Below are positions 32,963-62,538 of a stretch of DNA of 64,000 bases, piece by piece. Position numbers and translations under genes: made by a program. The notes below the pieces were generated by a model that was not told where the DNA came from, did no database searches, and worked only from the letters and a program-made list of their open reading frames with translations. Location: NCBI GenBank assembly GCA_963669155.1, contig OZ022589.1:10875965-10939964 (forward strand). Reading direction: 5' to 3'. Numbering within the stretch: position 1 is the stretch's first letter; each line of letters begins with the position of its first letter. The DNA is from Arbacia lixula. Lineage: Eukaryota > Echinodermata > Echinoidea > Arbacioida > Arbaciidae.

Positions 32963-37100
<4,138 letters not shown>

Positions 37101-37198
37101 TATGTTTTCAGTCAGTCCAGCTTCAACAACTTCGGAGGAAAGAATCTCGTGATTGCTGTTGGTTCCAAATGAATTCGCTTTCGGTTTGAACCGAAGTT

Positions 37199-38440: not shown

Positions 38441-38533
<93 letters not shown>

Positions 38534-40690: not shown

Positions 40691-41130
40691 GTTCATGTTC
40701 TTGACCAACCTACCTCCATCATTTACGTACTACTGGGATGGGCGTGCAATCTACATCACTACTAATTGAGTACTACTAGCGACAGCACGTTCTTGAGGTG
40801 GGTTAATTACATTTGAACTTGGTACCTTAAAACCTAGACAGAAACAACCATATTTCATTCGGGGCTTTCTTTAATCAAAATTATACATTGTAGGTAGGGG
40901 TGTTCAGACAGGAACATGAGAGAAGCCAGATGCAATCTCAGCAGATCCAACGTCCTACAGAAACTGATTTTTCGGACTGCTTATAACCATACCTGCAGCA
41001 ATTGCTTAAACAAATACAATGCGAACTTATTGATTCTTCCATGTGACATACCTGGAACATTTCTGACATATGTTTACAGGTACTCCCATGAAAGGTTGAT
41101 GACATTTTGTGAAGACGTGTGTGATACTAG

Positions 41131-41378
41131 TGACTGCAGCTCAAAGGAATTAGCATAGGGTAAGGGAAAGGGAAGAAAGGGAAGGAGCCTTTGTTTTAAA
41201 CCATTGTATATTTTGTTCAGTTCAGCATGAAATGTGATGCTTAAGCCTAAAATTAAAGCATCATGTGTCAAGCTGAACTGGACAAATTATACCACGGTTT
41301 AAAACTGCATGATGCGGCTCCATTCCCTTCTTCCCTTTCCCTTTCCCTATGCCAATTATTCCTGTGAGCTGGAGTGTA
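41131..41378. mobile_element. Palindromic MITE (CACTCCAGCTC family), copy 1
   Basis: The arms carry GCATAGGGTAAGGGAAAGGG and its mirror CCCTTTCCCTTTCCCTATGC. The ends are AGCTCAAAGGAAT and a mirrored GAGCTGGAGTG followed by TA. The hairpin is about 240 bp. A cleaner copy is at 60201-60431. Confidence 0.8.
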
Positions 41379-41481
41379 GGTGGAGTTTCAATGCTGACTA
41401 TATGTGCATAAAATTCTGTCCATTGTTCTGCTCATTTCTACCTAGTTTGATGTCACAATTAATGTCATCTTGATCTGAGAT

Positions 41482-41806
41482 GAGGGGGGGGGGGGGGAAA
41501 CATGTTTCACCAAGCTGTTCTATTCAGCTTAGAATAACTTTATGCGTGTCTCATGGTGACCCTTTCTTAATGAGATACTCCAATTTGTTCCTGTTTCAAC
41601 ATAGTGGGGGTTAATTTCCAACAATCCCAATCAAATTTGACAAATCATAAACTTTGATTTCAGGCACTTGTTAGCAAGAATTTTAATTTATTAACATCAC
41701 ATTTGAACTTAAGCTGATAGGAATCAACATCTATGAAAATCTGATGAAGCACAAGAAAGGGTCCACCAGTCGTGTGTAAGAACTGCTTGGTGAAATACCC
41801 CCCTGT
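41482..41806. mobile_element. Fold-back element (GTTTCACCAAGC family)
   Basis: Left end G-run plus GTTTCACCAAGCTGTTCT, right end AGAACTGCTTGGTGAAATAC plus C-run. Arms extend inward (GGTGACCCTTTCTT mirrored by AAGAAAGGGTCCACC). Related full copy at 56640-56997 and a truncated copy at 42285-42349. Confidence 0.75.
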
Positions 41807-41967
41807 AGGACTTTTTGGAGCTGGCCGGGGCACAGCAGTGCTAAGAAAAGTTATTTTAGAATAATATTTTCATAGTGATTTTGTAGTACATTTGCATCAA
41901 GAGAAGTTGATCAATGAATAATTAGATGTGAGGGGACCTGTAAGTCAAAACTCAAGTTCTTTTGCAG

Positions 41968-44900
41968 GATACCATCCATGACCACAGTACAAATTAGCAA
42001 CATGCCGTTACCGGCGGCCTTGGTTGCCACGGATACCGAGAGAGATGTCCAGATGACGACGCCTGGAGCTGGCTCCGAGCAGCGGCTGCAGGGGCCAGTG
42101 GACATTGGGCAGATGTTTGACCACCAGGCCCGGTGTTTTGACCAGCTGAAGGAGGCCGTGCAGAGGAGAGACGCAGAGCTGCTGGACCGTATCTCTGCCC
42201 TTGAGCAGCAGAACGAGATGAAAGACCAGGAGATCGCAGCTCTAAGGTCACGACTCGCCGTTGCTTTGAGGGTAAATATAATGCCAGGGGGTGTTTCACC
42301 AAGCCGTTCGTAAGCTAAGAACGACTTTACGCACAACTAGTAACTTAAGGTCTGTTCTATAATTACACATATTATTACTGTCCTCCCTCTGGCTCCCAAA
42401 AACAAACAAATAACACAATAATACACTTCAATTATTGTGGGATAGCCTGACAACGACTACTAAGAGCCGGCCTTTTATTATGTATAAATGTTTAACAAAC
42501 ATTTCTTCTCGTTTCCTTCAGGAAACCGGACCGAGCGTGTTCCAGGATAAAAAACCAGAGATAAAACTCAACGAGAATAAAAACTCTGGAAAACCTTAGG
42601 AGACACAGCCATGTCATAACATAACACAACACACTTTCATTGCAAATAAAAGTTGTCTCGTTGAAAGTTCAAGCTAGAATGATTCAATTACGTACTAATT
42701 GATGCCACGTACCCCCGTACGTGCCCTGGTCACCGTGGCAGAATTAGCTCGCACACCTGTACGAGCTACCTATGCAAATTACATTCCATTGGGACAACGG
42801 CCCCGTACCCAACATAAGTATGCATTAATTAACGATACAAACAACATTTGTCTGCTATACAACCGTACCGCAGACAAATAACAGTCTGTTCTATAATTAC
42901 ACATATTATTACTGTCCTCCCTCTGGCTCCCAAAAACAAACAAATAACACAATAATACACTTCAATTATTGTGGGATAGCCTGACAACGACTAGAATTCA
43001 AAGAACGGGAGCAAAAGGTGAAAGAAGAGAAATGACCGATTATAATTCAAAGTCATGCCCATAATACTTGATGTAACTCGGCTAGATATCGACAACAAAT
43101 TTTGTTCATCCATACACATGAACAAACCTTTTGAATCGTGTCCGATTGACTCCTTGAACATTTTTCAACATTGTTTACTATAATGAAATACAAAGTTAGT
43201 ACACAACTGACAAATGAACCCGATATGGACCAAAAAAGGACAATCTTGCCCGTCTAAACATACTACCTCGTCTGAATACAACTGATTCCGAAGTATATTA
43301 GATTTCAGGGAACACATGCTAAAAACTTGCCTTTCTCACCTCGTACATAAAAGTACAGAATTCTGTCATTGAATGGTTTGATTTATAACCATGAAATTTT
43401 ATTTTTCCGGAATGTCTTAATTAATTCTTTCAAGAAAAGAAGACGCTTTTTGTACATTATATGACTAATGGTGCTGTTTTTCCATCAGCTATCTCAAATT
43501 ATGTTCAATCTTTGATCAATCATGCAGTGAATTTCCTTCCACATGGAAACGATATAAGTAATTCTCCTGAAAGAAAATTTATGATTATTTAATCATGTCA
43601 CATGTTTAAAGTGAACAAGAATAGATTGCCCAAGGCACGAACAGATACACCTTTGTCATTAACATGTTTCGAAAATGATCAAAGCAAAAGTTGTACTTAA
43701 AAACCTATATCTTACATATATTTAAACGCACGAAACCTTGTGCTATTTCTCAAGTCGAACGAAAACAAAACGACCCCCCAAAACAAAAGAACCCTTTTCA
43801 TAATTCCAAACACTTGGTAACCAATAATTTGTTCTCCAAACTATCATCAACATAGTCGTCTTCAGACTTTTCGCTCTTCTATCGCTCGTGCCTCTTCCAA
43901 AGCCTATCTGGCACGGAAGCTCAGGCAGCGGCGATAGCCCCTCCTGATCTGAGTGAAGGCCCAAACTAGCATCTTTCCCGTATAACTCCCGCAAACGAGC
44001 TAATACTGTTTCCCAGGGCCCTGGTTTAACTTAGACAAACCATTTCTCCGTTTGTTACATTAAGCAGATATGAATACAAATTGATCAGACCTCTCGAGAA
44101 TACCTGCCTTATCCACATATTCTCTTAAAATTTCCACTGGACAGGCATTTCTAAAAAAAAAAAAAAAATATCTTCACAACCTTCGTACTTCTTGCATAAA
44201 TCAATGATTTGGCGCGAAAACCCGCGCCTTCTTGACAACGGGTCTCGACGACCTTCGTTTAGCACTCTCCAAAATAAGTTTAACGAAAGCGTTATCCATT
44301 GGATCAACTTCTCCTCTCATGCTATTTGCCCATTTTATTGACTACAGTGCTGCCTGAATCACACCGAATGAGGACCCTTGAGATATTAAACTTGATATAT
44401 ACAATGCGACGTGTATGGGATCTGCTGGTAATGCTCTGCCCCCCTCTGCTATGATGCAAGACTCCTATCTCTTGAATGAACCAAATTACTTGCTCTTAGT
44501 CCCTTCGCGTCTGGCCCCTATGATGTGAAGAGCCATGATGACTGCCTGGTCGATCAGACTCTCGGATCGAACCCCTGCGTCGTCCACCGCACCTTGTATA
44601 GCCTCCTGGACGCCTAAAGCTGAAATTGGGAAAAAAAAAAAAATATAGTGCAGCACTATAATCTTATCTTCAATGCGATCAGCCTAAAGTTGCTTCGAGG
44701 GCTTACAAAAATTCAATTTTGTCTCCGCCCCCTCATCACTACACTAGAGGGCAACAGCTCATATTCTTTAACAAATGAGAAGAACCCCTCACCATCCCAA
44801 ATCTTGGGCCAAAAGGGAGCAGATTTCCAATATGGGACTATTAATGTGCCCCTTGCCTTTTCCCGCACTAATTCTTCGACCGTTCTAGCAATGACTCGAG

Positions 44901-47900
44901 GTGGTGGTACCCACCAATTTATATCTTTCTCCCAACTCTGAGAAAAAGAGCATCATTATCAGTTGTTTCATTACACCACCATCTGGAATTAAACTTCCTA
45001 CATTTGGTATTATAATGGCAAGCAAAACTGTCATACACACTTCTGATCTAACCTATAGTACACGCCCCAATTTTCATGCCAGTCGACACTGTCGACGTCC
45101 TACTCAAATCATCAGCCCGCTTGTTCTCACCTCTGGGTATCCAACCCGGGTCCATTTTCACATTGTTTTCTTCAAAAACTTACTGTAATCTCAAACCCTT
45201 TTGTTGCAAGGCGGAATTAGCACTCCCCTTTCTCATGGTTTTCACAACATCCTTGTCTGTGTACCAACGTACATTTCGCCCTTCCAGGCGATGCTCGAGT
45301 GACAGTACCATTCTCACAACGGCCTCGAGCTCGACCTCTCCCCGTGGAGCTTTGAATCCATTTTCACATTGTTTTCTTCACAAACTTTCTGTATTCTCAA
45401 AGCCTTTTGTTGTAAGGCGAAATTAGCACCCCCTTTCTCATAATTTCCGCAACATCCTTGTTGTCTGTGTACCAACGTACACTTCGCCCTTCCAGGCGAT
45501 GCTCGAGTGACAGTACCATTCTCACAACGGCCTCGAGCTCGACCTCTCCCCGTGGAGCTTTGAATCCATTTTCACATTGTTTTCTTCACAAACTTTCTGT
45601 ATTCTCAAAGCCTTTTGTTGTAAGGCGAAATTAGCACCCCCCCTTTCTCATAATTTCCGCAACATCCTTGTTGTCTGTGTACCAACGTACACTTCGCCCT
45701 TCCAGGCGATGCTCGAGTGACAGTACCATTCTCACAACGGCCTCGAGCTCTCTCCACGTGGAGCTTTGAATCCTCTCAGACTCAGACCAAAATCCCATGA
45801 GCTCGCGTTATCACTCTCAACTATATAACCCCCGTATCCAAAACCGGAGGCATCTGTGTATACTTACCAATTGTACGTAACCACACCTGATATACTATAC
45901 TATTCAACTTGTCTACACTTTCCCTCCAATAAACAAACTCTGCCAGCATGTTTGATGTTACCAAGGTATGAGCATTCCAGTTCGCCCTACTGTTCATACA
46001 CCTGAACAATTCCCTTGTCTTCAACTGTACCAATGATCCTAACGCCGTGTGCGTATTGACACTATCTTTCATACGGCCTTTGGTAACTTTGCTAAGAACC
46101 TAACGTGCGTAGGTGTACTAAGCTTCCGACTTTTAGAATGGAAATTGAAAACCTCAAATAGTCGATGCGATTCTTTGAGATTCGCAACTGATCGATTAGA
46201 AATTCATAATCTAATCCTAGTCAGGAAGTTTGTGGTTTTGGCTCCCACTGACATTTTTCTTCAGCAGGAAGAAAACCTAGATCTTTGAGATATTTTTGCA
46301 CTAAGACACTTAGAGAATCGGCCCCTTCCTTAATGGCATTTTCCGCGATTCCGTCGTCAAGGAACATAATTACTTTAATGACCCTGATCACGCCAATGAC
46401 TGACGACAGATCTCATCACTTTGGCGAATACATACCCCTCGGTAAAAAAAGATGCCCAAAGGTAAAACGTTGCACACGTAATACTTCCTTACTACACCAA
46501 AATCCCAGGCAAATACCAAATATTGCCTATGCTCATGAGCTATATCAATGTGATGATAGGCCGACTTTAGGTCGAACGTGAACGCATAGTCACCCATTTC
46601 AAACACATCTTTCACAGCAGAAGCATCTTCATACTTTAACTTCTCTTTGTATAAATGAGGATTACATTTTCCTCTTCTGACACAGTTATAAGATTTACTA
46701 CATGAGGCCTCTCTTCAGCCTCGGTAATACATTTCCTCTCTATCAATTTACGTATCTCACTCCCAACAAATTTCAAATGATCTCTGGCAGAGAAATTATT
46801 GAGCAAATTAACCCTTAAAGAGGTTGAATATAAGGGTAATTTGTACCCTTGATCGATTATACCACAGATGTATTTATCAGAATTTATTCTTTCCCAACAT
46901 TCCATCCTCTCTCATAGCCTCCTTGCAGTAGATGGAATTTGGCCAGCTACGAAACTCGTTTCACATTCCGTTTCAATTCACGGTGAAACTTCACTTTTGT
47001 TTCAATTCACACCTCATCATAAGTAAGAAAGTATCACTTAGCTTTGTGTTGTAGGGAAGATTAGTGGTAAATTCTCTGCAGTCAGCTCTCCAATGCCCTG
47101 CTTTTCCACACGAAAAACACGAACCCGGCTTTCAGCTCGACTGTGATCTCGACCGTTTCTCGTTGGTTCCGGCAACACCGGAACCGCCCCTTCGGCAATC
47201 TTTATGTGCGAGTCTTTCTTGCCATCTCTCCCCTCATCTACCATCAATGCGTCTCCCTCTATCAACTTTCTAGTGACTTTGACATTGACTTTGTACTGTT
47301 CTTCGTTTCCGCGTTTTTGGAACTTGTACATGTCCTTCTTCATCTCCTCAATTCCCGCTATTTAAAATTCGCTAAGCTCTCTATGGTTGTCATTCACTCG
47401 CTGCTGAAAAGTTCCTAATTTATAGAAATCAACGAATCAATCTGGCTTAGAAGCCCCGCCTGGCTTTCTTGAATTTCCGCGCTCACGAGGTCAGCGACTG
47501 CGGTCGGCTCCACAGTAGTTGTCTCGTTGAAAGTTCAAGCTAGAATGATTCAATTACGTACTAATTGATGCCACGTACCCCCGTACGTGCCCTGGTCACC
47601 GTGGCAGAATTAGCTCGCACACCTGTACGAGCTACCTATGCAAATTACATTCCATCGGGACAACGGCCCCGTACCCAACATAAGTATGCATTAATTAACG
47701 ATACAAACAACATTTGTCTGCTATACAACCGTACCGCAGACAAATAACATTTTTAGCATTGAAAGCTTGATACAAAGAAGGTTGAAGTCTTGGGTGTTGA
47801 AGGCAATACTTTCTAATAGGTCAGGCCTTAAATTTTTAAATTTAGTTAGAAATATGACTTGGACAAACAATGCTGAAGGTCTGTGTAAATGCAGAGCAAA

Positions 47901-50551
47901 ATCTACCAGAATTCACCATTAAAAGCGAATATACATTTTTTAAGCTGTTATGTACCAAACGATATACTGTTCCATGAGAGCTGTGTGTATTACTGACAGT
48001 GCAAAAATTCCCCTGTGGAGTGTCAAGGGTTAATGATTTTTCTTGTCAAATACATTGTATGTATTACATCGTCAAGTAAAAATCAAGCTTCCATGAGCTA
48101 AATTTGCAATGCCCAGCATGGGATGCTATGTACATGAATGCGTACCAGCATTTTCCAGAAGTGAAACAAGGAAGTTTATTAATTATGTGAAACTGTGTTA
48201 AAAAGCGGACCTTAAAGGTTTAAAGGAGCAGTACCTAATAAAAGTGCTTTCAGTTAATAAAGAAGAGTTTGGGTGAAGTTTATTTCAAAATAATTTAATA
48301 ATCATTATTATGTTCATTCAAAGAAATTATAATCACTATGTTATCAAAAGTATTTATCAAAGCTTATGCTAGTGAGTCGATGTCACTGCCATACAAATGC
48401 AGATTTTATACCACTTTTATTCCCATTCAGTGAAGCTCTCACATGCCCATGTCATAACTCCCAAAACTAACCCATGTGTACATAATCAAATTCAATAGAG
48501 AAACATGGGCCTAAAATCACTAAACAACAACAACATTAACATTCCAAACGAATCAACATTCGTATCTGCAAGAATCTTCTTATCTGCAAGAATCTTCGAA
48601 CCTGCAAGAATCTTCAGGATTGAAGGAGGCAGATTAACCTGAAGAAGAAGAAGAAGATTCACAGCAGGCATTGAAGCATGATTCTGAGATTGGTAGCTGC
48701 CAGGAATTTATAGAAATGTGATGGCGCTTAGCCAACGAAAATTGAAATTGAATTTGCCCTGGCTTGTTCTTGAATATTTAGGGGACTGAATCCCAAGCTA
48801 CTGTGCAACCAGCGCACTCTCTGCAAGACCAAACCTCCTCTCATCCTGGGAGCCTCGTTCAGCCGGGCGGGGATAATAATCCTTCCGTGGGATCTAGTCA
48901 ACTGGAAAGAAAATTGTCGGGTAATATTATTTTTCTTCTGAAAACTCAAAGATGTTTTAAGGGCCCCCGTCATCAAAATATATGTTGACTTCTGTTGATG
49001 CAACTTAATATGTATATAACAAAATCACTAACTGTTCAATGGAAATATGTGTCCTATATTTTAAAATACTTTTTCTATATTATTTCTCAGCACTGATAAG
49101 CCCCGCCTCCAAAATATCCTCCAACTCAAGATTCCCCCTGTGACATCATCGAAGGTAGAAATTAGCAGGATAATAGACATAATTTATGCACAAACTAAAC
49201 ATTGCAATGACTACCTGCAAGTGCTTATAATAGCATCACATAGCTAGCACATTTCTGACATAAGGAAACGATTATTCCCACATGAAAGGTTGTTAGATGG
49301 TATTGTGTGAAGACATGTGATGCTCTTGTGGGCAGGTGGAGGTAGTCATTGCAATGTTTAGTTTGTGCATAAATTATGTCTATTATCCTGCTAATTTCTA
49401 CCTCTGATAATGTCACTGGGGGAATCTTGAGTTGGAGGATATTTTGGAGGCGGAGCTTATCAGTGCTGAGAAAAAATGAAGAAAAATCATTTTAAAATAT
49501 AAGACACATATATCCATTGAACAGTAAGTAATTTTGTTATGTACATATTGTGTTGCATCAACATAAGTCGACATACATTTTGATGACAGGGGACCTTTAA
49601 AGAGATGGATATCCATCCCTTTGAGACCATGTTCCTTGCAGCCACTCAATATTCATGACCCGCAGCTGCTCCTCACAATATGCTGTGTAGATGATTGCCC
49701 GGATGATACAATAGAAAAGGCAGGTTCTGAATATGCCTGTATTAGCATTTTTGCTGATAAACAGTTTTGTCATGTATCGTTTGTAATGTGTACTTCTGGG
49801 GACAAGCGAATATGAATTTCAGTACATGTACTTTTCGAGACAAAAATACTAGTGGTCTCCATGTGACAAGCATATATATATATATATTTATATCCCTTCT
49901 ATGAATATTCATGAGTATTCTAGGAGTGATTGGTCTATTGATGCTCGAAGAGCTCCGGATATTTTTCACTATTTTTTCCTGGGGAAGACTGCGCATGCTC
50001 TATTTACTATTTTCTTCCTTGGGACAACTGCGCATGCTCTCTACCTGAGCGGGCGTAAATTAGTGCGCGCATGAATGCAGTGCGCGGTGTGTTGCGCATT
50101 TACCTGGGATGAACCGTACCGATATCGAGACAGAGAAAAAAAAAGGCGACATACAACCACATGGTGTTACCGAAAGTTTTACTATTTTCTAAATAGTATT
50201 TATTAGTTATTGTTTTACAAAAGGGATATAAAACAAATATACCAAGCATTGAGTTCGAATTTATAGTGAAAATTATCCATCTTCGGAGGGACTGGCATAA
50301 GTTATTATTTTTTCCTCGGGGGCTTCGCCCCTCGGAAAAAATAGTTCTATGCCACTCCCTCCTCAGATAGATAATTTCCACTATACAATCTCACAGCTTG
50401 GTATATTTGTATAATATATATATATATATGTGTGATCCGAAGAGGGGGGTTTTTGAAGAGGGCCGTTGCAAGACATTGTATACCACTAGTTATAGGACAC
50501 ATATATGACGAAGAACCGCAAAAAACGTACATCACCGAGACTGATCACAAT

Positions 50552-50588
<37 letters not shown>

Positions 50589-53500
50589 GGAAAATATATT
50601 ATAGCACCAGTTCAATATATGTTCTAATGGGGAAAGATGCGGCAACGTTAAAAATTAACTTAAGCACAGCTTCATGAAACAGTGCGGTGGGCTCTTTTTT
50701 ACTTTGTAGCCTGGGCTAAGTCGCCCATTGACTTTTTTTCACTGATCACCTCTCCCTCTTGCTCAAACTAGATTTGCAGGTCACTCCTGTGACCGAAAGG
50801 GTGACCCATGTACGGTCAGCGCCAGTGATGTCCAGTGGTCCCTGCGTCTACCCTGGTGCCACACACGACCCCCAACCTGTGGGGAATGGTAGGGGGGGCG
50901 GACCGGCAATGCCAACTCGTCAAGATTCAGAGGTACACTTTTCACATATTTTCTTTGCCTGTGTGTTATCATGTCTGCATCACTAAAATTTTGGCGGTTC
51001 CTTGTACCTTAGGCGGTGTGTACAAAAGTTTGCGTCCCCAGAATCAGTGTTTTGTAGATGAGCGTATCGGGGACGTTTATAAGATTTTTGTTTTTGGCTA
51101 GCAACACTGTTTTCCGAATGTGCCACTTTTTGCGCCACTCATTCTGTGCTGTTTGTCCATTAATCATATTCTGAATGGGCTTTTTTGAGAGCAATTAACT
51201 TCTGGGTGAGGGCCGGGGTTAATGTTTAAATTGATGAGTAGGGTTAACAAGGGGTGCATTTTTAAGATTTTTGTTCCAGCAAAGAAACACTCTTTTGAAA
51301 AGAGTATGATATGACAGACTGTTTCTAGCACCCCTTAAGATGCAACTGCAGTAATGCAAACAAGAAACTTCTCCATCTTTGTGTTGCTACCATGCTCCAA
51401 CGACTGATTGGTGTCTTGAGTCTTGATATGCAACTGCTCGTTGTTTGCCCCGCCATGTCCAATGTTGAAATCTGATGCACATATCGTGCACCTAGCATGA
51501 TTTTTTTTTGATGGAACGATGCATCTCCAATTCTTACTGTATTCTTCTTTAAAAGTCTGTAACTTCTTGCCACGCTTCTTAGTTGTGTAGGATTCATAAA
51601 TAAATCCAACCAAAATGAGTTCAGATTGTTGACAAAAATCAACAAACGCTGTAATGGCCTGTGAGAAATCCGACAGTGTATACGGCGCTAGCATAGCGAG
51701 GCCTGGCGCTGGCCGCTCGGTAGCGGGGCGGCGCGGGGAAGATTTCACTCGGCCCCTGCTCACAAAGCTGTCTTTCTCTGTTGGGTACACACGCACACAC
51801 GTACACACAGTCATAATACAAAGACACACTAAGTCATGTATGCACCTGCACTGTGAAAGGGGTGTGCTAGATAACAAATTGTCCAATCGGAAGCCCCACA
51901 GGATTTCGATGCATGCATTCAAGGATGGCTGCGCTTGAATAGTCAAAAGTACATGTACGTGCTTAACCTCGGAGTGCTAATTTTGAAAATTCGCAAAATC
52001 TGCAAAATCCAGGATTTATGGGATGAAAATCATACCACCCGCAATTGGCGGATTTTCCATAGAAATTATGGGAAATTTGTACTAGATGGCATCTCTGCTA
52101 AAGTAGTGTTGGACTTTTGGTCTATCCTTATGGGCTATTGTTCACTTTTAGCATGTTATATAAAAAAAAAAGATTTTTGCTTAGGTTCTAAAAATGTGTT
52201 CACTCTGCTTGAGTCAGAACTTACTGCTGCATATACGGTCTAGGAACATACATTGTAGACTGTAATCGGTACAACAAGAGGGAATCCAAATATGAAAAAA
52301 GGTAAGGTTATTTTTTAAAACTTTTCTTGAAATGGTAAGTTAAGTTGTAACTGTTATTAGAACTCATACATGTTATAATGCCATGTTGTTGTGGAGTTTC
52401 ATGACTTTTGGAAGTGTAGAACACTACTTTTGATTTTGTTCATCCATTAAGTTACTTACGAAAGATGTATTAAAAGGATAGAAGTAATCATTAATGGACA
52501 AGTGTATTATAGCCCCAAAGAGCTATTGATGATTTCTTTTCTTGTCCCTTTGCATCTGTAGGAGAAATGTGACTTCCTTCCGGAGCACAGATTGTACCTG
52601 GTCGACGAAATGCCTGCCAAACAGGTCAAGCAGCTTCTGCGACACCTCAGCATTCCCGAACAGAGGATCGACGGCTTTTACATGGCAAACCCAACCGAGC
52701 CAACAGAATGCTGCGTCCAGGGACTGTATTATTGGAAAAATTTCAAGGGCAGTGAGGCAACAGTGGGGGCAATGCTCACAGCTCTGATTAAGTGCAGTTT
52801 ACGCGACGTGGCCGAGAAATTCTGCCAGTACTTCAAATTTCATCAGCTGCTCAATCAATTGAGAGGTAGGATTGACCGGCTTGGATTGGCTCATTTCAAT
52901 TTCAAGATTATTTTGGATCGCTGGCCTTGAAGCTTAATCGGTGTTCAACATGTTCTGTACTAAGCCTGTATAAATGCAGGCCTGCTTTTTTTCCGCTCAG
53001 ATATAACATGACTCCATTGTGATCAGCTATTTGGACAGTAGACAACAGACTACAAATACACTTCAAATACCTCATAGGTCACAAATAAGCAAACACCCCT
53101 TTTGTAAATGCAGTTCCATGGCAATTTTTGACATCCTAATTGGACCAGGGCTCACAAAGCCAGAATGTCTATGAGTAAGCAACGGGTTAATGCTCTCACA
53201 CATTATGCGGAAAAAAAAGAAAAGCAATTGCCCATTTTTATGCTGCCTAAACTAATGATCAAGGGGGAGGGGGGAGGTGGACACATTCCATTCTAAATAT
53301 TGTATTCCATTATATATTTGTTTGTCCTTTCTTTTTGGAAGAGAGAAAGTTATATTTACAGAAATCAGTATTACGTAGTCGTAGACCTAGCTCTATAGAA
53401 ATGGAGAAATTTTTTAAGATGCGAGACTATTGCCAGTTGAGGAAACTTGTAAAATTTATTAACATAATCATGAGTCATTTTAGTCATGAACCAAAAAGAA

Positions 53501-55410
53501 GTGATTTTGTTGATGTTACTGTTCAGCGTCACAAACATGTAGTTACACGTAGTGGTAGAATTGTAAGAAATCCTGTGTGCTTGGTGTTGTAAATACTGAA
53601 GAAGTTATGTACTCTATTTACTTTATGTATTTGTATGTATTCATGTTATTGTATATCATTGTAAATATGTTGAACTCTCATACCCCGAGAGGGGGTCGAT
53701 AGAGTTAATAAAATCTTAATCTTAATCCATCTGTCATGAGTGCCGTTTAACCTTTCCAAGATTGCTCCTGCTTGAATATATCAACTCATTTGGATCAACT
53801 GACTTGGATCGTATGTGCAAAAAAAGATCCTTTCTTGTATGTGACCGTGAACCCATTCGGGACCAAGTATGACAAGTATATGGTTTGGGACTATGTTCTT
53901 AATTCTGTTGAATTGAACTTAATCTTCAAGTTGGCAACACATTTTAAATCATGTTTTTACTGCAAAGTTTAAAATCATGTTTTTGCTTTTCATGTTGGAG
54001 AAACTATTGCTTTAGATTGTATTTGTTTGATGTTTAGTTGCTGTTTTTTCGTATCTGCTCTCTTGTAGGCAGAAAGAGGGTTTAGTCTTTATCACCAGAC
54101 TTAGTCGTTTCCAGACTCAGTTGTACGTGCCCATGCACTCCACTGCCTAGAACCCTGGCTATTCAAGAATAGCTAAAGATACACAATGTGTTTGATGGGA
54201 TGTTTTCTTACATTGCAGAGAGTTCCGACCGAGGCCAGGATAGTGATGGGTCAGCTCAGTCTCCTCCACCAACAGGTCAGTAGACGGGTCAAACATTAGC
54301 CTCATTATCTGATCAGGGAAATAGGCCAGAAGTTTAAATCGCGTTTGCAGTCATGCCCGCTTCCATTCTATTGCGCTAGTGAAAGAGAGCTGAAGCAGAT
54401 GTAAGTGCCAATAAAAATCTGGATGTCGCTTTGCAGTGCATTCTGGGATGACTTTCCCCATTTTGCTTACAGAGAATTGATCTAAAACTCCACTTTAGTG
54501 GTCTCTTAGTAGGGGTATGTGAGGGTAGGGTGCAGATCTCTTGATGACATTTGCATGGTGGTGGTGGTGGAGGTGGGGGAGTGGGGGGGGAGGGGCGAAG
54601 TGAACATAGTAACATGTAGAGAGATGTTTAAATGCTCCATGTAGTTTTCTTTTATTCATGTTCTGTGTGATTGTTTCTTCAGCTCAACAAGTCTGGAGTA
54701 CGGATGATGATACAGATGGGCCAGGTAGATATGTGAATTGTTCTGGATTCTGGGCTTTTGAACAATGGGTGTTGTGAAATTCACAAGAGTATGGTTCTGT
54801 CATAGTAATTATGGCATGAATAGAGAGATATGATTACATAATTATCTTTTTCAAATATGTTTTTTTTTATTGAATCATAATTTATTACAGTGTATGTATT
54901 GCTCAAAGAAGGCTTTTGAATAATGTTCACTTCTTACCTTCCTTCATGTTCTTTTCAATGCATTCCTTTGTCCTTTTTTAATGTTCCTCCATTCAATTTC
55001 CCCTTGCTGCCCACTTTTCTTTTCTTCTTCATACACCCTTTTCTCTTTCCCCATCTTCTGGCATACCACTTTCACTTTCTTGTCTTCTTCTCTCTCCTCC
55101 ATTCTTACCTAGTTGTCTCATTCCTTCTCCCTTCTGTCTTTTTTCGCTTTCTTTTCTTTTCTCCTTTATTTTCCTTAACATAATTTCAAACTTTGGTACC
55201 TATCCTCTCAAATCTCCTCACTATTGCTATTCCCTCCCTTCCCACCCCTCATTCTTGCCTCTCCTCACCCTTTCCTCTCACTTCCTTTCTGTGTACCCCT
55301 ACCATCGACTTACTCTTCTATATTCACCTTATTTCCCCCCTTCTTTCCATCTCCTCTTGTCCTTCCTTGCCCCTCTCCCTTCTTTCCTCTCCCTCTCTCT
55401 CCCATCTTCC

Positions 55411-55448
<38 letters not shown>

Positions 55449-58400
55449 TCTTCCCTCTCTCCACTTTTCTCTCACCCTTCTCCTCTCCCATCTTCCCACC
55501 CTCATCCCTCTCCTCTCCCTTCTCCCCTCTTCTCAATCCCCTTATTTAACCCTCTTCCCTCCCTCCTCCCTCTCTCCCTTCTTCCCTCTCTCCCCATATT
55601 CCCTCCCCTCCCTCTCATCTCCCCATCTCCCCTTCCTCCCTCTCCACGTCATCCCAACCCCTCCCTCTCCTCTTCCTTCTCCCCCTCCCTTCTGTCTCCT
55701 CCCCCTTCCTCCCTCACCCCTCTCCTCTCCCTCCCCACCCCACATCATCCCAACTCCTCTCCCTACTCCCCCTCCCCTCTGTCTGTCTCCCCCTTCCACC
55801 CTCATCCCTCTCCTCTCCAATTTTCCCTCCATCTCTCCTCCTCCCTCCCTCTCCCCTTACTGTCAGTCTCATCCCCCTTCCTCCCACACTCCTCTCCTCT
55901 CTCATTTCCCCTCCCCTTCCTCTCCCCTCAGCCCCCCGCCCATCACCACCAGCTCCATGCACCTGCCCCCATGATGCCCCTCCCCTCCAGAGACTCCTGT
56001 GGCCCCACCTCAGGAGCACAGACTCCTTCTCAGACCTGGAGCAGGAGCTCGAGGACAAGGAGATCTTTACCCCTGAGCAATTGAGCAACTTCTCCAAAGG
56101 CCTATTTCCAAAGGAAACAGCCAAGCGTGACCCCTTTATCCAGGTATCTTCAAGGTCCCTCATTATTTAAATAGTTGTTATCTATTACTACATGGTCAAA
56201 TACCAAAGCTCACTCTTTCTTAACTCCATCTCTGCCAGCCTTCATACTGCCTTATGTGAATGGTGTGTATTAGAAATACAAAAATACCTCAACGCTGCAT
56301 AAAGAGTTTATCATGAATTTGTGGGTTTATATGGTTCAGGAACAGCATGGTATGGTTTTATGTCATTCAGCTTCTTTGGTAGCATAGCATCCAGGCTGTT
56401 AGGGATATTTTTTTTTAATCCAAACTACTCAAAATAACAAATCTGGCTGCAGTAGACTGCTGACTCTAGAGTGATCATAGACGGAGAAAAATAGAGGATG
56501 AACCCTATTCTACAGTTTGGATGAAAAATGTTTAAGAGCGTCGAAGCAAGTCTACAGCTTGTGGTGATTTTGGTCACTTGTGCTATTAAATGACACCAGG
56601 GAAGTTTGACCATGGCAGTCATCTGGGATTTAGTCCTCAGGGAGGTGTTTCACCTAGCTGTTATTAGGATACGAAGGACTTCAGGCACGACTGGTGACCC
56701 TTTCTTGTGCTAAGTGAGATTCTCAATGATTTTGATTCCCATCATTAATAAGTTGAAAATTGATCCATGTAAATCGAAATTCTTGTTGTTAACAAGCTTC
56801 TGAATACAAAGATGATGATTTGTCAAATTTGATTAGGATTGATCATACATTGCGAGACAAACGATTATTACTAGCAAATTCCCGTAATGAGTAACATTGT
56901 TGGAAATTAACTAATAACAGGAAAGTTAAGCACAGGAAAGTGTCACAAGACGTGCATAAAGTCGTTTGTAGCTTACGTACGGCTTGGTGAAACACCAGCA
57001 AGAATGCTTCAAGAGCCATGGTAGACGACAAAAGAGGTCATGTGACATATTCATTTGTGATTTTCTCTTAAGGTTTAATGCACATCATCGTTCAGTGTGT
57101 TCATTTTATGGCCTCAGGGACCTGTCTTATAACAAGTTGCAATAGATCGCAACTTGATTTGCAATGGAGGCTTGCAATCATTACTCTGAACATAAGTGAT
57201 ATGGGATTGTACTTGCAATTGATTCAGAACAATTTGCAACTCTATATAAGTCAGGGCCCCAGGCTTGACCCCAAAAGTCCCCCCAAATAAATAGTTCTTT
57301 AAATTTTTCTTTGAGCCCCATTGCATAAGAGTTACCATTAATGAACTGCCATCAATGGTAACTACCATGGTAACATCGCTTGACAGCCAACGAAATCAAG
57401 GTTTCCATAGAAGTTACCATTGGTAGCAAAGATGCCATTCAATTGTAAGTTTTAACAAGGTCCTGGTCTCTCTTGCTCTCCTAGGCGTGCGGTGATGGTA
57501 ACGCACACACAGTTCTCTTAGAGTGGGCCAAGGTGGAGGTGATGGCATCACCGAAGCAAGCGGAGGTTACCAGCGGTGCCCTGAGAGGTCTGGGTAAGCT
57601 GCTGAGGAGAGCAGACCGGAAAGACATTCGGTCTTGCCTGCTATCCTACATCGAGTATGGAGTTCTTGGTGAGCATGGTTTATACAGTGATTAGGATGTT
57701 TTAAATCTGTGTGGACGTGGACGGCTTTCAGATCCAATGATGCCATTCTGAAGCTTTGAGCATGCCCCAAGGCCATGATGCATATAGGCTTTTCAATTTT
57801 TGTAACTCACCATCAATGGTAACTACCATGGCAACAGCCAATGAGCTCTCAGTATTGCACCTGTTGCCATGGTACTTATGATTGGTGGTAAGTTACTATT
57901 TTTACGGTTAAGGGCTAATGTTAGGCTGCCAAAGACTGGGACCATGGCTGAGGTATTGAGAGGAAGACTAGAATAACAAACGTGGACCAACACAAGGACC
58001 AAGACTGACAAGCTGTGACCAAGTCTGAGACCAAGACAATACCCAACAGTCCTGTGGTGATATTCCAACATTCCTCCCAAGTTTTCCCCCAAGTTTTCTT
58101 TGAGGACCTTACCAGACACGGCAGTGTGATGCAAGGAATGCGTAACCAAGCACCCAAACTAACAGTGCATGCTCATGCCAAATAGGTGAAGAAGTATTCA
58201 TAACCTTGTTTGATAATGAACAATCAATTTTTATGTTAACTTGATGTGAGATTATCTTACATTTTGTAGATAGTTACCACTTCTCATAAATGTTCTTAGT
58301 TTTAGTTTATTAGTTGACACCAATGTGAGGCAATGACTCAAGCTGTAAGCTTATGTTGTCATACCTCTGTATGTTCCACTGTGTACAATTAGTATGTGTA

Positions 58401-60971
58401 TAATACTTTTATCTTGTTTAATAATGTATGTATGTATGTATGTATGTTTAATAACTTGGTATTTGACATATGTGTACTTTATGTGTCATTTTTTGTCTCG
58501 CCCACCGGAGGTGAAGGCGAGACTAAGGGATCCAAATGGCGTCCGTCCGTCGCCCGTCCGTCGTCCGTCCGTCGTCCGTCGTCCGTCCGTCGTCCGTCGT
58601 CCGTCCGTCGTCCGTCACAAATGTTAAAGTTTACCTGCAAGACTCTCTTATGATCCATAACTTGGCAACTGTTACAGCAATGGCAGCCACACTTGGATGA
58701 TAGAAGCACTAGGGGTATCTTCATAGTATGGTGTTGTCAGAGGTCATGTGATGATGTCAAAGGTCATTTGAGGTCATATATTAAAGAGTATGTGCAAGAC
58801 TCTCTTTTTCTATGTTAAAGTTTACCTGCAAGACTCTCTTTTGACAAATAACTTCACATAGGTAGCTTGGATTACAACCTAACTTGGGTCATAGATGTAC
58901 TGGGGGTACCTTCATGTTATGGTACCGTTGGAGGTCACAGGATAAGGTCAAAGGTCATTTGAGGTCATACGTTAAAGTTTACCTGCAAGACTCTCTTTTG
59001 ACAAATAACTTCACATGGGTTGCTTGGATTACAACCTAACTTGGGTCATAGATGCACTGGGGGTACCTTCATGTTATGGTACCGTTGGAGGTCACAGGAT
59101 AAGGTCAAAGGTCATTTGAGGTCATACGTTAAAGTTTACCTGCAAGACTCTCTTTTGACAAATAACTTCACATGGGCTGCTTGGATTACAACCTAACTTG
59201 GGTCATAGATGCACTGGGGGTACCTTCATGTTATGGTGCTGTTGGAGGTCACAGGATAAGGTCAAAGGTCATTTGAGGTCATACGTTAAAGTTTACCTGC
59301 AAGACTCTCTTCTGACAAATAACTTCACATGGGTTGCTTGGATTACAACCTAACTTGGGTCATAGATGCACTGGGGGTACTTTCATGTTATGGTGCCGTT
59401 GGAGGTCACAGGATAAGGTCAAAGGTCATTTGAGGTCATACGTTAAAGTTTATCTGCAAGACTCTCTTTTGACAAATAACTTCACATAGGTTGCTTGGAT
59501 TACAACCTAACTTGGGTCATAGATGCACTGGGGGTACCTTCATGTTATGGTGCTGTTGGAGGTCACAGGATAAGGTCAAAGGTCATTTGAGGTCATACAT
59601 TAAAGTTTACTTGCAAGACTCTTGGTGGAGGCTTTTTATTCCATCTCAAAGAAGGGGGAAGGTGGGGGAGGGGGAGAAGATAGAGGAAGTAGCATTGCGT
59701 GCAATAGCCCTTCTCATTTATGGAATGTTACATTCTATGGCAGATATTTCACAATCAGCCAGGGATAAAATTCTTTTGCGTAGCAATGGAGATCGCGATA
59801 TTTCTGGTTATTTTCGCAAGTGGGCGAGACACAATATTGCTAATGCCTTGTTTGTAATACATTGTCTATTTTTGATGAACTATGTAGGAATGAATAAATG
59901 AAATTCAAATGATTAAAAGAAAAGATTAGAAGTTTGGGCTTGCTCCTCTAGAAGAATTAATGACCGGGCATACAATAAGAACTTTCTCTTGGATATTTGA
60001 TGTGTACTTTAGGCCCCAGCGTTGATGAAAAGGATAACCTTCGGAATGATGCAGTGGTCTGCTATACTACAAAACGTGATCTTGGGATAGAGCTTTCCAC
60101 CGAACAGACCAGTGGTATGTAAAATCCAGCTTTTAAATCTTTAATTTCTTTAAAAGTGTGAATGTCTCTTGATTAACCTGTTCTTTACTGACCCCACATA
60201 CACTCCAGCTCAAAGGAATTGGCATAGGGAAAGGGAAAGGGAAGAAAGGGAAGGAGCATCAGTTTTAAACCGCGGTATATTTTATCCAGTACAGCATGAA
60301 ACGCGATGCCTTTTAGGCTACAGTATCATGTTTCATGCTGAACTGGACAAAATATACCGCAGTTCAAAACTGCTGCTCCTTCCCTTTCATCCCTTTCCCT
60401 TTCCCTATGCCAATTTCTTTGAGCTGGAGTGTATATTCGAGCTGGCTTTCCTTCACTTGGAGAGTACATGTATGTGAAATAAATCAAACAAAGAGAAAAT
60501 TGATGTGTATTGTCGATAAACTGGTTGACGGAAGCTTTTCCATTCTTTCTGTATCTTCTTTCTTTTCCAGCCATATGCATTAACAAATGCTACAGTTATG
60601 TCTATTGGAATGACGTGTGTTACAAGTGCAAAGATGTCTCGATTGTGCTTAACGATTGGTGTGTGTGACCAATGCAAAAAATGCCTCAATGGCTCATACA
60701 AATCTAATGACCACAGCAAATTGATATGTTCCCTTCATCTCCAGGTATCAAGGACTGGCGAACTTTTGCCAGTGACGTTGGCTTTAAATCTCAGCACATC
60801 GAAGCCTGGGCGAAGGAACGCTATCCAGGGGCTCACGTCCTAAAAGCGTGGATGACTGGGAAAAATTCAACTGTAGGGAACTTGTACAACTGGGCGGTGC
60901 AAGCTGGTCGCATGGATATTCTGAAAATTTTGGAATCAGATATGTCAGCAAGGAACTCTTTTCTCTCGTAA
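41968..60971 (+). CDS. Triple death-domain adaptor-like protein with N-terminal coiled coil
   Basis: Coding exons: 41978-42271 (exon starts 41968), 48782-48920, 50772-50932, 52562-52865, 54219-54275, 54683-54724, 55932-56143, 57485-57668, 60013-60114 and 60745-60971 (TAA). Every junction is GT/AG, phases agree throughout, and the sum is 573 codons plus stop. Residues ~46-98 are a charged coiled coil (FDQLKEAVQRRDAELLDR). Residues 99-198 are a low-complexity linker. Death fold 1 is ~199-300 (LYLVDEMPAKQVKQLLRHL, then YYWKNFKGSEATVGAMLTAL). Death fold 2, more divergent, is ~365-464 (LLEWAKVE, LGKLLRRADRKDIRS). Death fold 3 is ~499-565 (IKDWRTFASDVGF, LKAWMTGKNSTVGNLYNW, AGRMDILKIL). There is no kinase, caspase, TIR or membrane segment. 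Death domains oligomerise by homotypic contacts in immune and apoptotic signalling, so a cytosolic scaffold is inferred. A further upstream coding exon is not excluded. Confidence 0.87.
42285..42349. repeat. Truncated fold-back fragment at retroelement insertion point
   Basis: GGGTGTTTCACCAAGCCGTT is the start of the GTTTCACCAAGC element family. The copy breaks off exactly where repeat B2 of the retroelement begins, so it probably marks the insertion target. Confidence 0.65.
42350..42459 (-). repeat. Split direct repeat B2 (element end)
   Basis: 110 bp identical to 42884-42993 as read by eye. Outer boundary of the retroelement; host repeat sequence stops at 42349. Confidence 0.9.
42522..42599 (+). 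other. Candidate alternative terminal exon of the death-domain gene inside the retroelement
   Basis: A good acceptor (CTCGTTTCCTTCAG, ending 42521) precedes 25 codons and TAG at 42597-42599. The frame is phase 0, matching the donor at 42272, so splicing exon 1 here would give a 123-aa protein with only the coiled coil and no death fold. AATAAA follows at 42645-42650. The segment lies in the A2-B2 spacer of the retroelement, antisense to it. It could be an exonisation or a coincidence. Confidence 0.35.
42645..42650 (+). terminator. AATAAA after candidate alternative exon
   Basis: Canonical hexamer 46 bases after the TAG at 42597, on the host-gene sense strand and inside the retroelement spacer. 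Confidence 0.4.
42651..42883 (-). repeat. Split direct repeat A2
   Basis: 233 bp, matching 47517-47749 with one substitution seen (CCATTGGG versus CCATCGGG). It abuts B1 exactly. Confidence 0.92.
42884..42993 (-). repeat. Split direct repeat B1
   Basis: 110 bp, identical to 42350-42459 by eye and directly adjoining A2 at 42883/42884. Confidence 0.92.
42994..43789 (-). other. Retroelement non-coding region between recombinase and B1
   Basis: AT-rich with no coding motif. It belongs to the element body by position. Confidence 0.6.
43790..44430 (-). pseudogene. Tyrosine recombinase of the DIRS-order element (broken)
   Basis: Minus-strand fragments follow the order of DIRS/Ngaro recombinases: an N-terminal PADPIHVALYISSL and WANSMRGEVDP-type helix region near 44300-44430, then LRSGGAIAAA (active-site Arg) near 43930, KRHER (His-x-x-Arg box) near 43890, and DDYVDDSLENKLLV with the presumed nucleophile Tyr near 43845. 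Stops and frameshifts interrupt the frame. The enzyme would integrate a circular cDNA; this copy cannot encode it. Confidence 0.75.
44690..45175 (-). pseudogene. C-terminal pol segment of the DIRS-order element
   Basis: Minus-strand motifs typical of the region after RNase H in DIRS/Ngaro elements: WIPRGENKRADDLSR (about 45145-45100), NWWVPPP (about 44925) and KSAPFWP (about 44815). Frames shift between them. Confidence 0.7.
45155..45785 (-). repeat. Triplicated ~207-bp unit within RNase H coding region
   Basis: TTTTCACATTGTTTTCTTCA occurs at 45155 (variant), 45361 and 45569. Each copy is followed by the same ~200 bases containing ACGTACACTTCGCCCTTCCA and GGCGATGCTCGAGTGACAGT. Spacing of 206 and 208 bases is not divisible by three, so the expansion breaks the frame. 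Confidence 0.88.
45176..46072 (-). pseudogene. RNase H domain of the DIRS-order element (broken, internally triplicated)
   Basis: The minus strand shows YTDASGFGYGGYI near 45860-45830 (first catalytic Asp region) after a thumb segment containing SLVQLKTRELF and ANWNAHTLVT. Then come WYTDNKDV and ELEAVVRMVLSLEHRL, the latter repeated with the tandem units. A frameshift separates the thumb from the Asp motif. Confidence 0.75.
46150..46905 (-). pseudogene. Reverse transcriptase of the DIRS-order element (broken)
   Basis: Minus-strand pieces, in order: HLKFVGSEIRKLIERKCI (finger region), GDYAFTFDLKSAYHHIDIAH (first catalytic Asp), VLPLG and MFLDDGIAEN (the DD pair, about 46350-46368). This is the DIRS-type RT signature with FLDD. 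At least two frame changes and a stop (near 46245) are visible, so no functional enzyme is encoded. Confidence 0.85.
47038..47343 (-). pseudogene. Gag-like segment of the DIRS-order element
   Basis: The minus-strand open frame starts MKKDMYKFQKRGNEEQYK, resembling the conserved KxKGNExQYKxN stretch of DIRS/Ngaro Gag-like ORFs, and continues with a charged helical region. It is only ~100 codons, so partial. Confidence 0.55.
47517..47749 (-). repeat. Split direct repeat A1 (element 5' end)
   Basis: 233 bp starting AGTTGTCTCG and ending CAAATAACA in plus orientation, identical to A2 but for one base seen. Host DNA resumes at 47750. Confidence 0.92.
47750..48781 (+). other. Death-domain gene intron 1, host part 3' of retroelement
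   Basis: Unique AT-rich sequence. A triple ATCTGCAAGAATCTTC repeat (48563-48615) with a mirrored GAAGAAGAAGAAGATTC (48641-48657) lies ~130 bases before the exon 2 acceptor. Confidence 0.5.
48956..49604. mobile_element. ~650-bp fold-back element just after death-domain exon 2
   Basis: Arms of about 260 bases are mirrored end to end: GTCATCAAAATATATGTTGA, GTTGATGCAACTTAATATGT, CAGCACTGATAAGCCCCGCC, AAATATCCTCCAACTCAAGA and TAATTTATGCACAAACTAAA. The loop (about 49225-49335) resembles 41060-41130. It begins 36 bases after the donor at 48920. Confidence 0.85.
49885..50411. mobile_element. Shorter inverted copy of the 27.5-kb element
   Basis: Reverse-complement match to 27485-27870 (CTCGGGGGCTTCGCCCCTCG hairpin, GACTGCGCATGCTCTATTTA) plus the far end at 28576-28650 (GCTCGAAGAGCTCCGGATA). 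The middle ~650 bp of the longer copy is missing. Confidence 0.8.
50412..50771 (+). other. Death-domain gene intron 2, distal part
   Basis: Contains (AT)n at 50556-50584. Ends in GCTCAAACTAG, the acceptor used for exon 3. A nearby CAG at 50779 would break the frame. Confidence 0.6.
50933..52561 (+). other. Death-domain gene intron 3
   Basis: Mostly unique. It holds a transposon-derived zinc-finger-like frame on the minus strand (51335-51600) and a CpG-rich patch at 51690-51760. Confidence 0.55.
51335..51600 (-). pseudogene. Transposon-derived zinc-finger-like fragment
   Basis: On the minus strand KLQTFKEEYSKNW, then ARCTICASDFNIGHGGANN and a trailing histidine resemble the C-x2-C...SISHGG.ND..H module at the N-terminus of several hAT-like transposase-related proteins. 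The surrounding 203-codon frame has no other recognisable part and no transposase core, so a fragment is likely. Confidence 0.4.
52866..54218 (+). other. Death-domain gene intron 4
   Basis: Contains an open frame (53335-53592) ending RSGRIVRNPVCLVL, reminiscent of the C-terminal tails of retroelement pol proteins. It is followed by AATAAAATCTTAATCTTAAT near 53709-53727, a LINE-like or retroelement 3' tail. At 54050-54170 there is a copy of the GTGCATGGACACGACC hairpin family. Confidence 0.45.
54725..55931 (+). repeat. 1-kb polypyrimidine (CT) tract in death-domain gene intron 6
   Basis: From about 54930 to the acceptor at 55931 the sense strand is almost pure C and T with few purines. It includes (CT)n at 55415-55446 and a degenerate ~30-100 bp pattern of CTCCCTCTC/TTCCCTC. 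Large open frames in it are composition artefacts. Confidence 0.9.
56144..57484 (+). other. Death-domain gene intron 7
   Basis: Holds a fold-back element of the GTTTCACCAAGC family (56640-56997) and palindromic repeats with GTTGCAA and TGGTAACTACCATGGTAAC (57120-57440). Confidence 0.65.
56640..56997. mobile_element. Fold-back element (GTTTCACCAAGC family), second copy
   Basis: Left GGTGTTTCACCTAGCTGTTA and right TACGGCTTGGTGAAACACC are inverted. GGTGACCCTTTCTTGTGCTA mirrors GCACAGGAAAGTGTCAC with divergence. Confidence 0.75.
58535..58618. repeat. (CGTCCGTCGTC)n minisatellite
   Basis: Units of CGTC and CGTCCGT alternate for about 80 bases. Just before it, TGTCTCGCCCACCGGAGGTG has an inverted partner GGCGAGAC. 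Together they form the head of the 157-bp array. Confidence 0.9.
58619..59622. repeat. 157-bp tandem array, about six copies
   Basis: ACTTCACAT(G/A)GG.TGCTTGG occurs at 58851, 59008, 59165, 59322 and 59479, exactly 157 bases apart. A divergent unit (58623-58800) precedes and a partial one follows at 59599. Each unit ends GGTCAAAGGTCATTTGAGGT, a run of AGGTCA-like half-sites. Confidence 0.95.
60201..60431. mobile_element. Palindromic MITE (CACTCCAGCTC family), copy 2
   Basis: CACTCCAGCTCAAAGGAATT at the left and its mirror ending GAGCTGGAGTG at the right, flanked on both sides by TA (60199-60200 and 60432-60433). The whole 231 bp folds on itself. It lies in intron 9 of the death-domain gene. 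TA flanks fit a Tc1/mariner-type target site. Confidence 0.85.
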
Positions 60972-61067
60972 TATTTAAGATGGCCTTTATTTAATGCAAT
61001 ATTTCATGTCATGTCCAGACAGTTGTTAACTATCATTTCATTTATTATATTGTCATAGTCAATTTAG

Positions 61068-61073
61068 AATAAA
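61068..61073 (+). terminator. Poly(A) signal of the death-domain gene
   Basis: AATAAA 97 bases after the TAA at 60969-60971, the first canonical hexamer downstream of the stop. Confidence 0.6.
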
Positions 61074-61278
61074 GAATATTTGTCCATAACAAAAGATAAC
61101 AGCAATATTTGACTGTGCTGCTGTCATTTAAGCTTTTTTATCACTTGTAAATATAGGTCAGTATATAAAGCATAGTTGGCATGTCTAGTTATCTTATCTT
61201 TTCCTTTAAAGCAATGATTTTATTTTCATTGAAACCATATGTTGTAATTCATGAAAATAATTCACAAACTTTCATGTA

Positions 61279-61478
61279 CTTTAAGTGGTAAGCACTCGTT
61301 ATTCCGAAGGTTCGTTATTCCGAACTTTACGTGACAAATGCTCGGATTAACGAACCCTTTTTCATTTTCGAGCATTGAGGTATAGGCAAGTAAGTGTTTC
61401 AGAATTACGAACCTTCGGAATAACGAACCTTAGAAATAAACGAACTTCGGAATATCGAACTGTAACCCTTTAAGTGAT
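61279..61478. repeat. GTTCGTTATTCCGAA inverted-repeat cluster
   Basis: GGTTCGTTATTCCGAAC-type units occur several times in both orientations (near 61296, 61310, 61403, 61420 and 61440), making a ~200-bp palindromic repeat. Confidence 0.7.
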
Positions 61479-62538
61479 AGCAAGTAGAAGTAATTAGGAT
61501 TTTGCTTTTAATATATCGATTATGTACATATCAAAATTGATTAAATGAAATTAGATTTTAGCATCTTTATACCACCAAATGTAATACCTGGAAGGCAATT
61601 TTTATGACTTATAAATCTATGTAAGTAATTTTTATTTTTATCCATATTCCAAATTAAGGTGCCACCCTTAATACATCTGTGATTATCCATCAGTATGTTT
61701 GAAAAATTGACTTGTTAGTATGGCATGTCTGACTATTTCACAGAACTTATGAATTAATGAATATTAACACTAGATGTACTTGTTTAATTGGATGATATAT
61801 GAAGTGAAGTTGAGTGATTTGACGTCATGTTTTAGGATATGGCTGTTTTTGCTTACTTTGCACATATTATATCTACAGTGTATTACATTGAACTCATGAA
61901 AATTTTTTAATTTATAATTAGTGCGATTCCTGATAGATAACTATCATAACTAGTTGAATCAATTAGAAACCACTTGAATGTACAAGGCATAAAAGCTCAG
62001 TTTTCTTGCCCTTAAAATGTTGCATTATTCTGCAAATAGATATCTTTTCCATGATCTTATTTTATGCTCCTGTGTGCGTGAATGGCAATAACATCATTTG
62101 TTGTACAGGATTATATTTTTGTTATGATTCTTTAAATGCTCAATGTTCTTTGAAGGTGTCTATGGTGAGAGTGCACTAATAAAGACTATTACGAAAATAG
62201 CTAAACTGTTGGTAACACGCCATGTGATTGTATTCTTTCAGGATATTTAACCCACTTATGGGGCGAAGAAAGGGAAAAGGAAGAGATAGAGTGAAAAGAG
62301 GAGATTTTTATGTTTCATATAACACTTCCACAAGACTGGTTTTAGCTTTAGTTTCAGTAATAAACTGAAAATAAATAAGATGAAATAGAAGTAGGAGGAG
62401 AGGGTGGTATAATTAGAGTTGTTAACCAGTCACAATGTAGTCATACTGAAAAAAAAAAGAAAAGAGAGAGGCAAAGTGTGGTGAAACTATAGTAAGTGTT
62501 GCAACTACATTGTAACTATAGGTTTATTTCAATATCAG
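61479..62538. other. No gene recognised
   Basis: AT-rich flank with no exon, repeat array or mobile-element end that I can support. Confidence 0.45.

Follow-up and report, generated by a model that had tools for sequence, protein, structure and literature searches.

The gene described here (gene A) is predicted to encode an N-terminal coiled coil followed by three different death domains (DD1, DD2, and DD3), and a diverged sister gene (gene B) on the same contig appears to have kept that order. We give somewhat better than even odds (about 0.55) that the product is an oligomerising adaptor or scaffold, in which a coiled coil, a FADD-like DD1, a divergent DD2, and a p75NTR/MyD88-like DD3 would together link receptor-proximal death-domain platforms. 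The window, that is, the whole stretch of DNA that was analysed, comprised 64,000 nt of Arbacia lixula contig OZ022589.1 (C14; positions 10,875,965-10,939,964), with gene A on the plus strand; genome searches covered 607 Mb in 590 contigs. One contig of this genome carries a COX1 with 12 in-frame TGA codons, which scored best under genetic codes 9 and 14 (502.1 bits each, against 501.3 for code 4 and 493.7 for code 5), as would suit an echinoderm. An initial annotation of the window had proposed a coiled coil and three death domains in succession, without kinase, TIR, caspase, or receptor parts. This architecture was supported by Pfam, by genome search, by the sister gene, and by a profile test of DD2.

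Gene model and splicing

The model of gene A, rebuilt from the sequence, spans 10 exons from the ATG at 41978 to the TAA at 60971. As first annotated, the exons join in frame at canonical splice sites into a 573-aa protein: the joined exons total 1722 nt, all borders are AG/GT, and there are 0 internal stops. The G+C content was 47-60% in the exons and 37-48% in the introns. Positions in the window were as follows:

41968..42271, plus strand: exon 1, encoding aa 1-98 and the coiled coil; ATG at 41978, preceded by the acceptor ttttgcag and 10 nt of 5'UTR
48782..48920, plus strand: exon 2, linker rich in Ser/Gln/Pro, aa 99-145, possibly skipped (splice model)
50772..50932, plus strand: exon 3, linker, aa 145-198, with tandem acceptors ahead of 50772 and 50780
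52562..52865, plus strand: exon 4, DD1, FADD-like death domain, aa 199-300 (Pfam Death, PDB FADD)
54219..54275, plus strand: exon 5, acidic/Ser/Pro linker (splice model)
54683..54724, plus strand: exon 6, acidic linker (splice model)
55932..56143, plus strand: exon 7, Pro-rich linker and putative N-terminal half of DD2 (conserved in gene B)
57485..57668, plus strand: exon 8, C-terminal half of DD2, probable divergent death domain (hhalign of the A and B pair)
60013..60114, plus strand: exon 9, linker into DD3 (splice model, comparison of A and B)
60745..60971, plus strand: exon 10, DD3, p75NTR/MyD88-like death domain, with TAA (Pfam Death, PDB p75NTR/MyD88)
61068..61073, plus strand: match to the AATAAA polyadenylation signal, 97 nt past the stop of gene A

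The acceptor of exon 1 sits 10 nt ahead of the ATG, and a non-coding 5' exon is therefore likely. Exon 3 of the 573-aa model uses the first of the tandem acceptors (50772), not the second (50780). An alternative splice that skips exon 2 and uses the acceptor at 50780 is also in frame, yielding 9 exons and 524 aa; because this form keeps the frame as well, the count of ten exons is not proven, and the splicing of exons 2-3 is uncertain. The linkers look disordered. Two other candidate exons were rejected: an additional AG..GT segment at 49091-49154, which breaks the frame and falls within an inverted repeat with 287-nt arms, and a different candidate for the second exon, found by eye at about 42523-42598, which ends in a stop and falls between repeat units of the retroelement in intron 1.

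Neighbouring elements in the window

That retroelement occupies 5.4 kb (42350-47749, minus strand) of the 6.5-kb first intron. Its split direct repeats are 100% identical (42651-42883 with 47517-47749, and 42350-42459 with 42884-42993), which suggests a recent insertion. It gave a zinc-knuckle match, weak RT_RNaseH matches, and no recombinase match; its layout is presumably like that of the PAT/Ngaro-type tyrosine-recombinase retroelements. The intron after exon 2 carries an inverted repeat (48955-49241 / 49315-49601) with 287-nt arms that are 90% complementary.

Farther from gene A, exons of two i-type lysozyme (Destabilase) genes were located on the minus strand at 19064-19982 and 32966-35159, and a signal-peptide-like exon was recognised by eye near them (21066-21278, minus strand). 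The plus strand carries a gene for an ADP-ribosylation factor (Arf), with exons at 8254-8508 and 11647-11877 and a last exon, placed by eye, near 13295-13513, as well as a cysteine-rich Ephrin_rec_like exon at 273-524 (E 8.2e-18). Scans of the 64-kb window with Rfam (gathering level) and for tRNAs gave no matches.

The first and third death domains

The whole 573-aa protein matched Pfam Death with an E value of 3.3e-20. The match in DD1 covered aa 211-285 (E 6.2e-12; 45.9 bits against a cut-off of 22.6), and DD3 alone was recognised at E 9.7e-8 (32.5 bits against the same cut-off). On the strength of these two profile matches the predicted protein is assigned to the death-domain superfamily (PF00531). 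Among solved structures in the PDB, DD1 was closest to FADD (E 5.3e-5), and DD3 was closest to p75NTR (1.1e-4), NRADD (6.4e-4), and MyD88 (1.9e-3). An AlphaFold2 model of the DD1 exon was weak (pLDDT 56); the highest-ranking Foldseek matches of this low-confidence model were Fas/FADD death domains, none with an E value better than 0.12. BLAST of the genome with DD1 (E<=1e-3) returned only DD1 itself, and a scan of viral contigs with DD1 gave 6 stretches that fit a pattern and 0 relatives.

When the genome was searched with DD3, the best match after itself was gene B (C14:22041175-22041363, E 4.0e-8), followed by a gene on contig C1 (8.3e-4); weaker matches were to five copies of a family on C3 (0.6-0.9) and to one place on C9 (4.9). 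The stretch matched on C1 carries a death domain (6.7e-11) and a TIR domain (6e-6) on one strand and looks like a MyD88-like gene. In the reverse search, the DD3 of gene B recovered gene A (E 8.6e-8) and the C1 gene (0.04); the DD3 domains of the two genes are reciprocal best genome matches after themselves, with the death domain and TIR gene next for both.

Parts that might belong to a larger signalling protein were sought around and between the exons. The Pfam scan covered the three plus-strand frames of 35200-41967, 42272-47749, 47750-57484, and 57485-64000, with an E ceiling of up to 1 in one scan and up to 0.1 in the others. No enzyme or receptor domain was found in these plus-strand frames in the introns, in the 6.8 kb upstream, or in the 3 kb downstream of gene A. 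DD1 and DD3 were the sole Pfam domains in the frames scanned; one FoP_duplication match (E 0.17), below threshold, appeared in the scan at E<=1.

A sister gene with the same domain order

Gene B is located at about 22.04 Mb on the minus strand of C14, 11 Mb from gene A. Its relatives of the three death folds follow one another as in gene A (tblastn E 0.057 for DD1, 0.005 for DD2, and 3e-9 for DD3), and as assembled it has 8 coding exons and encodes 530 aa. The two proteins aligned by blastp over 378 residues (187-564 of A) with 22.7% identity and an E value of 7.9e-25. Compared fold by fold, DD1, DD2, and DD3 scored 27.7, 43.5, and 52.8 bits, each a score reached by 0/200 shuffles. Phases at the starts are also common to both genes: 0 for DD1, 1 for the linker after DD1, 1 and 0 for the two halves of DD2, 1 for the linker before DD3, and 1 for DD3. 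The linker exons are divided up differently, with two in gene A and one in gene B between DD1 and DD2, and one in gene A and two in gene B before DD3; no counterpart of exon 2 of gene A was recognised in gene B.

Parts of gene B are weaker when taken singly. Its DD1 alone gave a weak Pfam match (0.097), and the exon with the N-terminal half of its DD2 is followed by a poor donor (gttcgt). Genome searches with its DD1 and coiled-coil exons returned only themselves, and a search with its DD2 exon returned only gene A, at a chance-level E of 7.1. From the sequence comparison, one architecture is kept in two diverged genes, the two members of the family found in this genome. With gene B, what was a model on paper becomes a conserved architecture.

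The divergent middle domain

The initial annotation had called a death fold in the middle segment and proposed a check of the protein against Pfam Death, CARD, DED, and Pyrin. Death was found in DD1 and DD3, but DD2 gave no match above cut-off. Neither gene had a Pfam Death match in DD2; the best Pfam match was DED in gene A (E 0.13; 13.0 bits against a cut-off of 35.9) and a spurious-looking Sulfotransfer_3 in gene B (0.098). There was no useful match among solved structures in the PDB, and genome BLAST with exon 8 (E<=10) found only itself. The AlphaFold2 model of exon 8 alone, which is part of DD2, was poor (pLDDT 59, three helices), and Foldseek with this poor model returned no useful match and no death-fold match.

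Conservation of the middle segment as a domain follows from its relative in gene B, the alignment score of the two being reached by none of 200 shuffles. The DD2 pair from A and B was aligned by hhalign with a death-domain profile built from four PDB segments and 13 other death domains of the genome, none of them from A or B. It scored 28.7, reached by 0/200 column shuffles (mean 10.2, sd 2.0, maximum 18.4), with the DD1 and DD3 pairs scoring 69 and 62 as positive controls. Scores against other profiles were 12.3 for DED (26/200 shuffles), 11.8 for CARD (47/200), and 16.3 for PYD (2/200), the last of these being not quite at its null but somewhat above it. The alignment to death domains covers the C-terminal half only; in the last three helices, the Trp and Leu/Ile positions agree with those of death domains. 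Against a set that included DD1 and DD3, hhalign gave a probability of 82. This paired test, with A and B kept out of the profile, replaced an earlier HMM comparison of DD2 by itself with a set containing DD1 and DD3, in which 3585/5000 shuffles got a reported score and 9/5000 scored at or above the observed value.

Could the middle segment be some other small helical domain, so that the order reads coiled coil - DD - X - DD? Such a reading draws on the missing Pfam Death match, on DED and Sulfotransfer_3 as the nearest families (both under cut-off), on an alignment confined to the C-terminal half, and on a PYD score that just 2/200 shuffles reached; but the score of 28.7 against the death-domain profile and the fit of the Trp and Leu/Ile positions in the last three helices speak for a death domain, and we think another kind of domain doubtful. 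In all likelihood DD2 is a divergent death domain, its N-terminal half being included tentatively. The initial call is supported for the C-terminal half, which groups with death domains by profile, but not at the level of the Pfam Death cut-off.

The predicted coiled coil and the probable unity of the gene

Within exon 1, the strongest heptad pattern over 35 residues was at aa 59-93; its score was reached by 28/1000 shuffles of exon 1 and by 5/1000 when aa 40-98 were shuffled. Applied to the coiled coil of gene B (aa 75-176), this test gave 31/1000. Heptad support for a coiled coil in gene A is thus moderate. Pfam Tropomyosin matched aa 58-95 at E 0.034, below its cut-off, and genome BLAST with exon 1 (E<=1) returned only itself. 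In gene B, a 176-aa coiled-coil exon lies on the same strand, 3.5 kb upstream of the DD1 exon, with its ATG 8 nt past a 5'UTR acceptor; its Pfam matches were to bZIP_1 (5e-4) and XRCC4_CC (2e-4), both below cut-off. The alignment of the exon-1 coiled coils of A and B does not stand out (score reached by 2/200 shuffles). The donor of the gene B exon is ambiguous, since a phase-1 site lying two bases upstream seems stronger than the phase-0 site chosen, and there may thus be an extra exon before DD1.

These details bear on whether exon 1 (41968-42271) is instead a separate gene, with the death-domain gene beginning downstream. A first intron of 6.5 kb filled largely by a retroelement of 5.4 kb would suit two transcripts, as would the uncertainty over whether exon 2 is included and which acceptor exon 3 uses, the lack of a clear alignment between the two coiled coils, and the fact that the stronger-looking donor in gene B is out of frame with a direct joining to DD1. 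Gene B, however, also has a coiled-coil exon that directly follows a 5'UTR acceptor and lies on the same strand, 3.5 kb ahead of DD1. With the same domain order and border phases in gene B, several transcripts for gene A are unlikely, and we judge the division into two genes to be quite improbable.

The death-domain repertoire and known adaptors

PF00531 was found in at least 106 places in the genome at E<=0.01; DD1 and DD3 of gene A were among them, and the death domains of gene B were absent. Three matches fall on one strand within 2.5 kb at C6:6420269-6422740 (L046), and three more lie close together on one strand at C92:27672-37275 (L047/L048); these loci are possible further multi-death-domain genes. 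Clusters of death-domain exons are not unique to gene A. Separately, 29 of the 106 matches listed, with similar scores, lie at C17:18.0-21.0 Mb, and this 3-Mb group probably represents a large family in tandem.

Sea urchin and amphioxus have many death-domain proteins (PMC2246300), and Table 1 of Zmasek 2007 gives 87 (82) for S. purpuratus (PMC2246300). From that count in the purple sea urchin, death-domain-rich genomes with new combinations are expected. The same paper describes NB-ARC proteins with novel death-domain combinations; the double death domains that it reports in CED-4/Apaf-1 homologues differ from the layout of gene A, in which three follow a coiled coil (PMC2246300). No description of the gene A architecture appeared among the papers listed by our literature searches; databases probably contain an unnamed orthologue, and a named one may exist.

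The initial annotation had found gene A to match none of MyD88, FADD, IRAK, PIDD, or CRADD, and we agree, the second domain of each being one that was not found in gene A. The protein resembles MyD88 in its DD3 (PDB 1.9e-3; 8e-4 to the death domain and TIR gene of this genome) and in its presumed adaptor role, but it has two extra death domains and an N-terminal coiled coil, and no TIR match was found in the protein, in the plus-strand introns, or in the 3 kb downstream. FADD is nearest to DD1 (5.3e-5), whereas gene A has no DED above cut-off (13.0 against 35.9 bits), and the DED score of the DD2 pair was reached by 26/200 shuffles. Although p75NTR and NRADD are the best solved-structure matches of DD3 (1.1e-4 and 6.4e-4), Pfam found no cysteine-rich domain in gene A such as p75NTR has. 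Unlike in IRAK and RIPK1, no kinase match accompanied the death domains in the protein or the plus-strand frames. Gene A differs from CRADD/RAIDD in having no CARD match (the CARD score of the DD2 pair was reached by 47/200 shuffles), and from PIDD in having no LRR or ZU5 match beside its death domains. Scaffolds of the CARD9/CARD11 type have a coiled coil, a death-fold module (CARD) as the assembly seed, and a MAGUK part. Gene A may work like them in pairing a coiled coil with a death-fold seed, but it has three death domains, no CARD, its coiled coil first, and no MAGUK.

Proposed function

As an adaptor, the protein would act as follows: the coiled coil would hold two or more chains together, and the pairing of chains would bring copies of three different death domains to high local density. 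Each death domain could then seed death-domain assembly with its own partner, and one scaffold might nucleate several complexes. By sequence likeness, DD1 would most likely bind a death domain of the FADD/Fas type, and DD3 one of the MyD88/IRAK type or the p75 type. The protein would in this manner link receptor-proximal death-domain platforms, perhaps serving innate-immune or death signalling in an adaptor role.

The main rival is that the protein is a decoy or brake: its death domains would cap assemblies of the MyD88 or FADD type and, there being no effector domain, stop the flow of signal. No match to a kinase, TIR, or caspase and no DED or CARD above cut-off would be expected of a brake, and the likeness of DD3 to the death domains of MyD88 and p75NTR would give it a target. 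However, an oligomerising coiled coil with three different death domains fits a nucleator better than a cap, and enzyme domains are also absent from the classic adaptors. We hold a braking role to be rather unlikely and favour the adaptor.

A more far-reaching idea, which we put forward as tentative, is that genes A and B represent a dedicated family of death-domain hubs, with a FADD-type, a MyD88/p75-type, and a private third death domain coupling Toll-type and death-receptor-type platforms in one chain. In vertebrates these pathways are kept on separate adaptors, and we know of no single vertebrate adaptor that links the two types of platform. A family of two genes that combine a coiled coil with three dissimilar death folds and nothing else would be a testable candidate for such a pathway-joining hub.
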